Below are positions 38,463-44,447 of a stretch of 64,000 bases of DNA, one piece after another. This DNA is from Phocaeicola coprophilus (GTDB lineage: Bacteria > Bacteroidota > Bacteroidia > Bacteroidales > Bacteroidaceae): the NCBI GenBank assembly GCA_016900015.1, contig JACJJM010000001.1, positions 1 to 64,000 of the forward strand, in the 5' to 3' direction. The notes below the pieces were generated by a model. It saw nothing but the letters and a program-made list of their open reading frames with translations, was not told the origin of the DNA and ran no database searches. Made by a program: the position numbers and the translations under genes. Position 1 is the stretch's first letter; the number at the start of each line of letters is the position of its first letter.

Positions 38463-39047
38463 ATGAAAGAAAAACTCGTTTTTGCGACCAACAATGCACA
38501 CAAACTGGAAGAGGTGTCTGCCATGCTCGGCGAACGTATCGAGCTGCTGAGCCTGCGCGACATCGGTTGCCATGCCGACATCCCTGAGACGGGAACGACA
38601 CTGGAGGAAAACGCCCTGCTCAAGGCACGCTATGTCAACGAACATTTCAACACGGACTGCTTTGCCGACGACACGGGGCTGGAAGTAGAGGCTCTCGGCG
38701 GCGAACCGGGGGTGTATTCGGCACGCTATGCCGGAGGCGAAGGACATGACTCTGTGGCCAACATGAACAAACTGCTCGCACGCCTGAAAGGGGTCGAAAA
38801 CCGAAGGGCACGCTTCCGCACGGTCATCGCCCTCATACGCGGCGGGCAGACATACGAATTTGAAGGCATCGTCGAAGGACACATCACGACAGAGCCGCAC
38901 GGTGACGGCGGATTCGGCTACGACCCCGTCTTCGTCCCCGAGGGCTACGACCGCACGTTTGCCGAACTGGGTGACGTGAAAAACCACATCAGCCACCGCG
39001 CACGCGCCGTCCAGAAACTGGTCGACTTCCTGAAAAGCGGACTGTAA
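38463..39047 (+). CDS. rdgB: dITP/XTP pyrophosphatase (RdgB/HAM1)
   Basis: The 194-residue enzyme removes non-canonical purine nucleotides from the pool. It starts [18 protein letters not shown] (T-N-N-x-x-K motif), then has [20 protein letters not shown] (catalytic Asp), [20 protein letters not shown] and the C-terminal SHRARA motif. Length fits the family. The stop codon TAA (39045-39047) is at the same time the left target duplication of a MITE. Confidence 0.95.
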
Positions 39048-39240
39048 GAAGCTGTTTTGAATTTATCGTGTGTTGATTGGGGATGAGTTTTTGAATCATT
39101 TTTGGTTCTGTGATGAGGAAGATAGCGGGCTATCTGACGAAGAACAGGAACGAAAAGGACCAAAAAATCGCCCAAAGCATACACGAAAAGCGGACGCATC
39201 AAGCAGGGAAAAACTTTTTGTAGAAATTCAAAATAGCTTC
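39048..39240. repeat. MITE with 17-bp imperfect terminal inverted repeats and TAA target duplication
   Basis: The element runs from GAAGCTGTTTTGAATTT (39048-39064) to AAATTCAAAATAGCTTC (39224-39240), inverted with one mismatch, and is flanked by TAA on both sides (39045-39047, 39241-39243). The TAA duplication and the short ends fit a non-autonomous IS5/IS1031-type element. It holds no gene of its own. It is unrelated in sequence to the CCTTTCCG family. Confidence 0.75.
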
Positions 39241-39310
39241 TAAGTGTTGAAAAGTGGGCCAATCGATGTCAAAAACCTTATCGAACGCATCCTTAAATGC
39301 CCGAAATACG

Positions 39311-39394: not shown

Positions 39395-40330
39395 ATGAAT
39401 CTGAAAGAAGAAATCAACCGCTTGCGCAAGGAAAAAAACGCCGTCATCCTGGCCCATTATTACCAGGAAGGCGACATACAAGACCTGGCCGACTTCGTGG
39501 GCGACAGCCTGGCACTGGCTCAATGGGCCTCACGCTGCACGGCTGACATCCTGGTGATGTGCGGCGTGCATTTCATGGGCGAAACCGCTAAAATCCTCTG
39601 CCCGGACAAGAAAGTACTCGTCCCTGACCTGACAGCCGGCTGTTCGCTGGCCGACAGTTGCCCGGCCGACCGCTTCGCCGACTTCGTGAAGGCCCATCCG
39701 GGACACACGGTCATCTCGTATGTCAACACGTCCGCTGCCGTCAAGGCCCTGACCGATGTAGTGGTGACTTCCACCAATGCCCGCCAAATCGTGGAAAGTT
39801 TCCCGCAGGAGACGCCCATCATCTTCGGACCGGACCGCAACCTGGGAAGCTACATCAATGCTGTCACAGGCCGCCAAATGCTGCTCTGGGACGGTGCCTG
39901 CCACGTGCATGAGCAGTTCTCCGTGGAGAAAATCGTGGAACTGAAAGCTGCACATCCCGATGCCGAAGTGCTGGCCCATCCGGAATGCAAGGGTGCCGTG
40001 CTGAAGCTGGCTGACGTTGTCGGCTCGACAGCTGCCCTGCTGAAACACGCTGTGAAGAGTCCCTGCCGCCGCTTCATCGTCGCCACGGAAGCGGGCATCC
40101 TGCACGAGATGCGCAAGCAATGTCCCGACAAGGAATTCATCCCGGCTCCGCCCAATGCGGGCATCTGTGCCTGCAACGAATGCAACTTCATGCGCCTGAA
40201 CACGATGGAAAAGCTCTACGCCTGCCTGCGTGACGAATCGCCGGCCATCGAGGTCGACCCCGACATCGCCGCACGGGCCGTCAAACCCATCGAGCGCATG
40301 CTGGACATCTCCCGCAAACTCGGGCTTTAA
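39395..40330 (+). CDS. nadA: Quinolinate synthase A
   Basis: The 311-residue iron-sulfur enzyme makes quinolinate from iminoaspartate and dihydroxyacetone phosphate in NAD synthesis. It has LAHYYQEGDIQDLADFVGDS, the VPDLTAGCSLADSC segment (C83), GACHVHEQF (C169), HPECKG and GICACNECNFMRLNTMEKL (C260/C263), which supply the [4Fe-4S] cluster ligands, and the nucleotide loop VSYxNTSAAVKA. Length is normal. The partner nadB is not in the window. Confidence 0.96.
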   Translation: MNLKEEINRLRKEKNAVILAHYYQEGDIQDLADFVGDSLALAQWASRCTADILVMCGVHFMGETAKILCPDKKVLVPDLTAGCSLADSCPADRFADFVKAHPGHTVISYVNTSAAVKALTDVVVTSTNARQIVESFPQETPIIFGPDRNLGSYINAVTGRQMLLWDGACHVHEQFSVEKIVELKAAHPDAEVLAHPECKGAVLKLADVVGSTAALLKHAVKSPCRRFIVATEAGILHEMRKQCPDKEFIPAPPNAGICACNECNFMRLNTMEKLYACLRDESPAIEVDPDIAARAVKPIERMLDISRKLGL

Positions 40331-40418
40331 AATGAAGAGTGAAGAATGAAGAATTTTCTTGCTGTGAAAGTTATATCAACTCTTCATTGTTCATTCTATA
40401 TACTTCATTCAAACCGCC

Positions 40419-40496
40419 CCTTAACTCCGCTCCCGCCTACCCTCCTTTCCGTGGTCGGGCGGAGTTAAGGCCGTGGTCGGCTACCCTTAACAGGGT
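40419..40496. repeat. CCTTTCCG-family repeat after nadA
   Basis: A perfect 12-bp stem CCTTAACTCCGC (40419-40430) / GCGGAGTTAAGG (40459-40470) encloses CCTACCCTCCTTTCCGTGGTC. It continues CCGTGGTCGGCTACCC and GTGAAAGAGCC, the latter matching the right end of MITE copies A and B. It can act as the nadA terminator. Confidence 0.7.
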
Positions 40497-40526
40497 GAAA
40501 GAGCCATCCGAATCCACACTTTTCAC

Positions 40527-41000
40527 CCTCTCCCACTTATCGACACATATCATATATATATTATTTCTTTCTTTTTAATTCTAAAGAAAATGATGATTAT
40601 GATAAGCTGTTGATTGTGTCGGAAGAAAAAGGGTGTTTTTCTTGCACAGTAACTTATCATCACGAAAGAAATAGTTATGCCGATGGAATAAACAGGTTTT
40701 AGACTGTCTAATTTATTGCCTTTCAATGGTCTTACTTCGTCAGATGAAGTCTTGTTGATAACCCGGCATGTCGATAACTTTTCGTCCTCCGACAGTCCGA
40801 CGGGCTGTGAATAAGCTGTTGAAACGAGCTTTGAAACTTTCCATGAAAAAACTTGGCCGTATCGGATGAAGTGCGGTATATCATTTTATTTTGTATCTCC
40901 AACTTTTCACCTCGTCCATCTTTTCACATGTTGTCGACAGGATATTGACTGTGGTTTGACTGGCTATTGACAGTTTATGAACAGTTTTGTCGTATCTTTG
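40527..41000. other. Candidate chromosomal replication origin (oriC)
   Basis: The region between nadA and the TrmH gene has no gene. It holds DnaA-box-like nonamers: TTATCGACA (40537-40545), TTATCAACA (complement of 40753-40761), TTATCGACA (complement of 40769-40777), TTATTCACA (complement of 40806-40814; exact TTATNCACA consensus), and the weaker TTATCATCA (40654) and TTATGAACA (40975). A run of almost pure A/T at 40545-40605 could be the unwinding element. On the left, the + strand of genes is C over G; on the right, G over C (for example 60-base rows at 37081: G13/C25; 39721: G15/C20; 41341: G22/C16; 42661: G15/C10). That is the change expected at an origin. dnaA itself is not in the window. 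Confidence 0.65.
40993..41000 (+). promoter_or_regulatory. -7 box of the TrmH-family gene
   Basis: TATCTTTG at 40993-41000 lies 28 bp before the ATG at 41029, on the right flank of the candidate origin. Confidence 0.6.
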
Positions 41001-41028
41001 CAATCTCTTTTTATTAAATGAATAAGCA

Positions 41029-41559
41029 ATGAGAAAACTGAAGATAACGGAGATGAACCGCCTGACGGTGGACGAATTCAAACAAGCCGAAAAGATGCCG
41101 TTGGTCGTGGTGCTTGATGATGTGCGCAGCCTGCACAATGTCGGAGCTGTGTTTCGCACGTCGGATGCATTCCGTGTCGAGCGTATCTTCCTCTGTGGCA
41201 TCACGGCTGTCCCTCCCCAGCCGGAAATACACAAGACAGCCCTTGGGGCGGAGGACAGTGTGGATTGGACTTATTATAAGGATACGGCTGATGCCGTGCG
41301 TGCGTTGCAAGTTGACGGTTACAAGGTGTATGCCGTGGAGCAGGCTGAGGGCAGCACGATGCTTCAGGACTTCCGCTGGGAAGCAGGGCAACGTTGTGCC
41401 GTGGTAATGGGCAATGAAGTGAAGGGAGTGCGTCAGGATGTCGTTGACCTCTGTGACGGTTGCTTGGAAATCCCCCAATATGGGACGAAACATTCGCTCA
41501 ATGTCTCCGTCACGACGGGGATTGTCATCTGGGAACTGTTTAAAAAGCAACCTCTCTAA
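41029..41559 (+). CDS. TrmH/SpoU-family RNA methyltransferase
   Basis: The 176-residue SPOUT-class enzyme methylates a ribose 2'-OH in tRNA or rRNA. It has the three SpoU motifs: DDVRSLHNVGAVFRTSDAF (motif 1 with the key Arg), VVMGNEVKGV (motif 2) and IPQYGTKHSLNVSVTTGIVI (motif 3). The short form without N-terminal extension is typical. First gene of the G/T-rich side of the skew switch. Converges on the DUF4294 gene across a large hairpin. Confidence 0.93.
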   Translation: MRKLKITEMNRLTVDEFKQAEKMPLVVVLDDVRSLHNVGAVFRTSDAFRVERIFLCGITAVPPQPEIHKTALGAEDSVDWTYYKDTADAVRALQVDGYKVYAVEQAEGSTMLQDFRWEAGQRCAVVMGNEVKGVRQDVVDLCDGCLEIPQYGTKHSLNVSVTTGIVIWELFKKQPL

Positions 41560-41569
41560 GTTCAATCCC

Positions 41570-41645
41570 AGCCCCTCCAAACCTCCCCCGAAGGGAGACT
41601 GATAAAGGCTGAAAGCCTCCCCTTCGGGGGAGGTTTGGAGGGGCT
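41570..41645. terminator. Bidirectional terminator: 25-bp perfect hairpin
   Basis: The arm at 41570-41594 (AGCCCCTCCAAACC...) is the exact complement of 41621-41645 (...GGTTTGGAGGGGCT), with a 26-nt loop. It lies midway between the convergent TrmH (ends 41559) and DUF4294 (ends 41656) genes. Similar GGGGGAGG hairpins recur in Bacteroidales intergenic regions. Confidence 0.8.
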
Positions 41646-41655
41646 CCGTATTAGT

Positions 41656-42365: not shown

Positions 42366-44447
42366 ATGGAGAGGGAAAATAGAACTCTGCTTGTGACACC
42401 TGTTCAAATCTGGTTGATAAGTTGCCTGCTGCTGTTTATGGTTGTTCATAAATCTGCGGCCCAATCGCTCACGTGGGAAGAGTTTGTCGAACGCATGACG
42501 ACCGAAGAGGAGCGCGAACAGACTTCCTGGCAGCATCTCTACGAGGAGCTTGCCGAGCGTCACGCTCATCCGTTCAACCTGAATGAATTGACGCGCGAGC
42601 AACTCGAGACACTGCCCTTCCTCACTTCGGAGCAAATCGAAGAGTTGTTGGCTTACGTCTATGTACACAAGCCTGTGTTGACTCTTTCCGAACTTCAGTT
42701 GGTTGAAAGGTTGGATTATGACACACGAGCCATGCTTTCCCTGTTTGTTTATGCAGGGGAAGTCGGGAAGCAGACAGCTCCTTTACGGTGGAAGAACCTG
42801 GGCAAGTATGGAGAACATGAGTTTATCGCACGTGTGGACATCCCGTTCTACTACCGCAAAGGATACTACCGGTATCCGCCTGATGTGCTGGAACAGTATC
42901 CCAATCGCCGTTATCTGGGGACACGTTTCTATCACTCCATCCGCTACCAGTATGATTACGGGACACGGCTTTCAGCCGGCTTTGTGGCCGAGAACGACGC
43001 AGGAGAACCTTTCTTTGGGCGCGGCAATAAGGGCTATGATTTCTATTCCTACTATTTTCTTTTGCATGATGTGGGTCGGATGCGTACGTTGGCATTGGGC
43101 AATTACCGACTGAACTTCGGCCAAGGGCTGGTGATGAACAATCAGTTTGTCTTGGGCAAACAGTCGGTGCTGACCGGCATATACAGTCGCAACAAAGGCA
43201 TTAAGAAACATTCCTCGACGAGTGAAGACGACTATTTGCGAGGCATGGCCGCAGCCTGGCAGTTTGGCCGGGTGGGACTGACCGGGTTTTATTCGTTTCG
43301 CGAACGCGACGCCACACTGAAGGAGGAGTTCATAACTTCGTTGAAAACTGACGGTTATCACCGCACGCCGCTGGATATGTCGAAGAAGCACAACGTTCAT
43401 AACCACTTGGCTGGATTGCATTTATCCTATGAAACTCCGACTTTCAACATTGGTTTGACAGGTGTTTATACTGTTTTCAACAGGGCGTTCAAACCGCAAC
43501 GCTCTTACCAGCAGTATGACCCGCGCGGACGTGAGTTTGGTGCGTTGGGAGTGGACTATCGTTGGGACGGCCATCGCTTTTCCTTCGTCGGCGAGACAGC
43601 TTTAGGAGGCAACGGAGCTTTGGCTACGCTCAATGCCCTGGTCTATCGTTTTTCTCCTTCCTGGAGTGTGCTTGTCCTCCACCGTTACTATGCGAAGGAC
43701 TTCGAAGGCATTCATGCCCGTGCTTTCGAGGAAGGCGGACGTGTGCGCAATGAAAACGGGCTTTATGTGGGAATGGAAGCCGCGTTGGGCGATAAGCTGA
43801 AGGCGACGGCCTACGTAGACTGCTTTCGTTTTCCCGCTCCGAAATACAGAGTCTCCGTCCCCGGTTCGAAGGGAGTGGAAGTTTTCACGCAGTTCACGGG
43901 GCGTATGGGAGAGCGTGTCGACTGGTTGTTGCGTTACCGCTTCAAGAATAAGGGAAAAGATTTTACGATGGAAGACGATGGCCGCAAGGGAACTGCTCCG
44001 GACGACCGCCATACGTTCAAGACACAGCTCCGCTGGCAGGCAATGCCCGAATGGATGTTGAAAACTACGCTTGACTATGTGCATAAGTCTTTCATTTCCG
44101 AGGGCAATGAACAGGGTTTCCAGTTGTCCCACTCCGTCGCCTGGAGACCGTCTGCGAAGCCCGTGCAGTGTGAGGCCGGAGGCAGCTATTTTCATACAGA
44201 CAGTTATGATACAAGAGTTTATTCTTACGAGCGCGGCCTGCTCTACACGTTTTCATTTCCTTCTTCCTACGGACATGGAGTACATGCCTACCTGTGGGGA
44301 AGTTGGTCTGTCAACAAGCTGTTCACAGTGATTGTCAAGTATGTTTATACCGGATATTTCGACCGGGACCGTATCGGTTCGGGAACGCAGGAAATCGAAG
44401 GACGCCACAAGCAGGACCTCCAACTGCAACTGAGAGTAAGGTTTTGA
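42366..44447 (+). CDS. Exported helix-hairpin-helix / beta-barrel protein
   Basis: The 693-residue protein has a signal-like N-terminus (VQIWLISCLLLFMVVHKSAA) and two helix-hairpin-helix units at about 70-115 (FNLNELTREQLETLPFLTSE, LTLSELQLVERLDYDTR), as in ComEA. The remaining 550 residues are Tyr/Phe/Arg-rich alternating strands with a final RVRF, typical of an outer-membrane barrel. HhH plus barrel proteins are known in Bacteroidetes; a role in DNA uptake is suggested by the HhH but not shown. It has its own terminator. Confidence 0.8.
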   Translation: MERENRTLLVTPVQIWLISCLLLFMVVHKSAAQSLTWEEFVERMTTEEEREQTSWQHLYEELAERHAHPFNLNELTREQLETLPFLTSEQIEELLAYVYVHKPVLTLSELQLVERLDYDTRAMLSLFVYAGEVGKQTAPLRWKNLGKYGEHEFIARVDIPFYYRKGYYRYPPDVLEQYPNRRYLGTRFYHSIRYQYDYGTRLSAGFVAENDAGEPFFGRGNKGYDFYSYYFLLHDVGRMRTLALGNYRLNFGQGLVMNNQFVLGKQSVLTGIYSRNKGIKKHSSTSEDDYLRGMAAAWQFGRVGLTGFYSFRERDATLKEEFITSLKTDGYHRTPLDMSKKHNVHNHLAGLHLSYETPTFNIGLTGVYTVFNRAFKPQRSYQQYDPRGREFGALGVDYRWDGHRFSFVGETALGGNGALATLNALVYRFSPSWSVLVLHRYYAKDFEGIHARAFEEGGRVRNENGLYVGMEAALGDKLKATAYVDCFRFPAPKYRVSVPGSKGVEVFTQFTGRMGERVDWLLRYRFKNKGKDFTMEDDGRKGTAPDDRHTFKTQLRWQAMPEWMLKTTLDYVHKSFISEGNEQGFQLSHSVAWRPSAKPVQCEAGGSYFHTDSYDTRVYSYERGLLYTFSFPSSYGHGVHAYLWGSWSVNKLFTVIVKYVYTGYFDRDRIGSGTQEIEGRHKQDLQLQLRVRF

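Follow-up and report, generated by a model that had tools for sequence, protein, structure and literature searches.

Where does replication of the chromosome begin in this Bacteroidaceae bacterium? The question is raised by a gene-free stretch between nadA and a SpoU/TrmH-family RNA methyltransferase gene (here TrmH), which an earlier note on this DNA had proposed as the origin. The window that we analysed consists of bases 1–64,000 of contig C104 (323,028 bp), from a genome of 3.79 Mb in 254 contigs. The features by which an origin is recognized come together in the stretch, namely the GC-skew minimum, a cluster of DnaA boxes, DNA beside these boxes that is A/T-rich by composition, and a conserved core found about once per chromosome, and they support the earlier placement. 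We therefore predict, with a probability of about 0.93, that this stretch is the chromosomal replication origin (oriC).

39395–40330, plus strand: nadA (quinolinate synthase), left flank, directed towards the origin
40331–41028, no strand: gene-free stretch, proposed oriC region, from the ORF listing and the gap model match
41029–41559, plus strand: TrmH, right flank, directed away from the origin

A gene-free stretch at the switch of GC skew

The first reading of the stretch, that it holds no gene, proved correct: nadA ends at 40330, TrmH starts at 41029, and the overlapping ORFs are all short or antisense, none of them a credible gene. One small ORF (40610–40702), the frame of which seemed to be common to three relatives, was rejected as conserved, given that, as we read the alignment, third positions show no excess of changes and that a wider alignment is not codon-like. 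An Rfam search for structured RNA in the stretch returned no match.

Cumulative GC skew along the 323-kb contig reaches its minimum at exactly 40,581, inside an A/T-rich run, and then rises over the remaining 280 kb. When the contig was divided into 10-kb bins, the four bins left of the switch all had negative skew, and every bin from there to the contig end at 323 kb had positive skew. The switch had been noticed before in a hand count of four 60-base rows, with a minimum expected near 40.6 kb; it is far larger than that count could tell, as bins of the whole contig change sign, and the minimum is where it was expected in this profile of one contig of the 254-contig assembly.

In many other bacteria the origin lies beside dnaA. 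Such an arrangement is extremely improbable here, because the contig that carries dnaA (C43) shows no skew switch around this gene and is positive in all ten of its bins; the minimum next to dnaA that the earlier note had named as the contrary outcome was thus not seen. The passages on oriC in the Prevotella intermedia genome paper also describe it as commonly far from dnaA in Bacteroidetes (PMC4755523); the earlier note had mentioned such a position for some members of the phylum.

We profiled the skew of two complete chromosomes from relatives of the same family (G019 and G022). Both switch from minus to plus at the TrmH orthologue or close to it, and back again about half a chromosome away, with local minima about 3 kb (G019) and 72 bp (G022) from the TrmH start. 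Skew was higher to the right of the TrmH gap than to its left in nine of ten further genomes, the exception (G032) belonging to another family. No clear switch at TrmH was seen in Prevotella lacticifex, and this named control was dropped, its skew being too weak for use.

DnaA boxes, an A/T-rich run and a trio-like run

The DnaA of this genome passes the TIGR00362 cut-off and looks ordinary, with an NRNHSTVLHS stretch that we take to resemble the DnaA signature. Its candidate sites and the elements between them are as follows.

40537–40545, plus strand: DnaA-box-like TTATCGACA, TTATNNACA pattern, at the left edge of the A/T run
40545–40604, no strand: A/T-rich run, likely DNA unwinding element (predicted from composition), holding the cumulative GC-skew minimum
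40590–40603, plus strand: five ATN triplets, ATGATGATTATGAT, DnaA-trio-like, 3'-TAN-5' from the boxes towards the A/T run
40604–40607, plus strand: 4-bp spacer AAGC between the trio-like run and the tandem boxes
40608–40625, minus strand: two abutting DnaA-like boxes, TGTTGATTG and TGTCGGAAG, degenerate, with 3 and 4 mismatches to TTATCCACA
40753–40761, minus strand: DnaA-box-like TTATCAACA, TTATNNACA pattern, from the close-triplet search
40769–40777, minus strand: DnaA-box-like TTATCGACA, TTATNNACA pattern, from the close-triplet search
40806–40814, minus strand: DnaA box TTATTCACA, the sole exact TTATNCACA match in the stretch
40975–40983, plus strand: DnaA-box-like TTATGAACA, TTATNNACA pattern

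Five TTATNNACA sites (middle bases relaxed) lie in the stretch against 0.10 expected, and this is the densest cluster of the 323-kb contig, in which the next-best 698-bp windows hold two. The closely spaced box triplet is the only one in the 3.79-Mb genome, and TGTNNATAA forms two overlapping close pairs here, of four such pairs genome-wide. Across 23 gaps, the box variants TTATCAACA, TTTTCAACA and TTATTCACA are enriched over shuffles. The several box-like nonamers reported before, one of them an exact TTATNCACA, correspond to five TTATNNACA sites, of which the one at 40806 is the single exact match. The lone exact match is no evidence in itself, because TTWTNCACA occurs 4 times in the whole window against 5.1 expected by chance. 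Counts of exact TTATNCACA or TTATCCACA were rejected as evidence for an origin, enrichment being absent (for TTATCCACA, 30 genome-wide and 32 for the reversed control).

On the plus strand, the elements run from left to right as TTATCGACA, the A/T run, ATGATGATTATGAT, AAGC, the two abutting box-like nonamers and the remaining boxes. The A/T run, outlined by the earlier note at 40545–40605, has 15% GC over 40545–40604, a value reached by 0.003% of the 60-mers in the contig and nearly the lowest among them. To its right, the triplets keep an A register at positions 0, 3, 6, 9 and 12 (a mean of 4.3 of the 5 positions over 18 loci, and all five in this genome), and the T after the register A never varies in four of these triplets, whereas in the remaining one it occurs at 16 of 18 loci. 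A published rule for finding DnaA-trios asks for at least three 3'-NAN-5' triplets with a spacer of up to 16 bp from a box (PMC8287927); the core has a 4-bp spacer and, in this genome, five triplets in register. Its unit is 3'-TAN-5' and differs from the consensus trio, 3'-GAT-5'. The tandem boxes have 0–1 mismatch in some relatives (for example, TGTGGATAA) against 3 and 4 here. In the present genome and the two closest to it these boxes are weak, and in all three nadA has the reversed orientation.

From this layout we infer how replication would start. DnaA, the gene for which lies elsewhere, would load onto the TTATNNACA boxes (40537–40983), extend from the tandem boxes along the 3'-TAN-5' run and open the adjacent A/T-rich run, from which two forks would leave.

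A conserved core and its flanking genes

Part of the stretch is conserved well beyond this genome.

40553–40666, plus strand: conserved single-copy core (model R1), E = 4.0e-12, the next hit in the same genome having E = 0.16

Model R1 has 126 positions and was trained on 16 loci, with the present genome and the two closest to it left out; the training set was mixed, roughly six of the loci being of the same genus. It matches 51 of 61 genomes of the family and 28 of 30 genera, nearly always in one copy, and 32 of 79 genomes across the order (sampled at about one per family), figures from searches with stricter filters that lose weak matches, such that the absence of a match does not equal the absence of the core. 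With nhmmer, a gap model trained on 11 loci from other genera matched 40554–40952 (E = 7.7e-24) as the sole place in 417 kb of this genome's sequence, and a 36-bp matrix from ten of these loci ranked 40590 first of 645,986 positions; earlier runs of both on the mixed training set had the same outcome. The less expected part of these results is a probable start element that is present about once per genome and common to most of the family.

The TrmH orthologue was matched in 41 of 41 relatives, although only by weak, paralogue-level matches in G003 and G013. By TrmH identity the closest named matches come from an uncultured Phocaeicola metagenome-assembled genome (MAG; 89% identity) and from Bacteroidaceae MAGs, and the organism is therefore very probably of this family. 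The gap between nadA and TrmH measures about 450–700 bp in most Bacteroidaceae checked, and both genes adjoin the core at 21 of the 30 loci found by the core model alone. They are divergent, both pointing away from the origin, in most relatives checked; in four genomes (the present one, G007, G008 and G010) nadA is reversed and faces the origin, and the noncoding core persists despite this change. The TrmH locus of G032 (L184 and L185), a genome from another family of this order, is flanked by skew of the opposite sign, and its genome gave no match to the core; TrmH is therefore no origin marker across the order.

Could the gap be an ordinary A/T-rich promoter region, with chance look-alikes of DnaA boxes and a change of skew that follows gene direction only? 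Promoter motifs are indeed present, a −7 motif of the Bacteroides type (TATCTTTGC) closely preceding TrmH and a leftward motif TAACTTTGC in divergent relatives, and the skew figures include any effect of gene direction. However, the skew holds its sign over 280 kb on the right-hand side, the genome has no second such box triplet, and a core of about 115 bp, present roughly once per genome, is conserved between genera whichever way nadA points, so we hold this explanation to be very improbable. The TAACTTTGC motif appears not to be kept where nadA is turned round, as if lost with the flip.

There is likewise only a slim chance that the origin lies nearby, say up to 20 kb to the left or right, with the boxes of the gap serving to titrate DnaA or in regulation, as datA and DARS do in Escherichia coli. 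Local skew minima 4–20 kb away in G001, G010, G011, G015, G021 and G026 would fit such a position, and the close relative G008 has noisy skew with a dense-region minimum 46 kb from TrmH. These distant minima, the skew results for P. lacticifex and G032 and the weak tandem boxes all count against the main reading. In its favour, the minimum falls within the core or 0–277 bp from it in five species of four genera (this genome, G007, G016, G022 and G024), a coincidence with a chance probability of about 2e-6 (5 of 13 as a binomial) that serves as a guide only, as genomes were treated as independent and the distance cut was picked after the data were seen. Moreover, no comparable box cluster was found elsewhere in the 323 kb, and the boxes have the A/T run and the trio-like run right beside them, an arrangement that would be expected where DNA is unwound. 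An origin within the stretch itself remains the preferred reading.

Several other elements lie in the neighbourhood. A dispersed repeat of about 197 bp (39045–39245), flanked by nadA and by a gene for a HAM1-family pyrophosphatase, has near-inverted ends (agaagctgttttgaattt and aaattcaaaatagcttct), is MITE-like and has about 17 near-full copies in the genome at 82–100% identity. Between the convergent TrmH and DUF4294 genes is a palindromic C-rich/G-rich hairpin (41565–41650), the arms of which are repeated at many places in the genome. A 693-aa ORF near the origin (42366–44447, leading strand) had no match in Pfam and NCBIfam searches. The palindrome GTTNCACGTGNAAC, parS-like and the only perfect match in the genome, lies at 113287–113300 of the same contig (L075), at a distance of 73 kb from the stretch; a copy with one mismatch is at 222761, and total counts of parS-like sites are not above a reversed control. 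We count the perfect copy on the same contig as consistent with the origin reading.

Comparison with known origins

We found no experimental study of an origin in this group in the open-access literature, and none that names nadA or the methyltransferase next to oriC. An exact oriC coordinate and the searchable model of 126 positions would give growth-rate methods that rely on read depth an anchor in draft assemblies from a dominant family of the gut. With the conserved trio-like run and its variant unit, the proposal that DnaA-trios are widespread can be put to a direct test in Bacteroidota. Tentatively, Bacteroidales may have a conserved, roughly single-copy origin core in which the single-strand track for DnaA is a variant trio, 3'-TAN-5'; if this were true, which we consider possible but doubtful, phyla would differ in their DnaA-trio code. 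The guiding boxes would then have decayed in this genome and those nearest to it, with the trio-like run retained, and another way of loading DnaA would be implied.

An origin distant from dnaA is already published in Bacteroidetes, and the kind is therefore known. The oriC of P. intermedia OMA14 chromosome I, predicted by Ori-Finder from skew and boxes (PMC4755523), resembles the present one, from the same phylum, in its skew switch, multiple DnaA boxes and position away from dnaA; the passages of that paper that describe it mention neither flanking genes nor a core element, and the two were compared by description. Compared with the published 'basal unwinding system' (BUS), the unit here is 3'-TAN-5' rather than 3'-GAT-5' and the boxes of this genome are weak. 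The likeness is one of sequence layout, box orientation aside: in both, two abutting boxes are followed by a 4-bp spacer, at least three 3'-NAN-5' triplets and then A/T-rich DNA.
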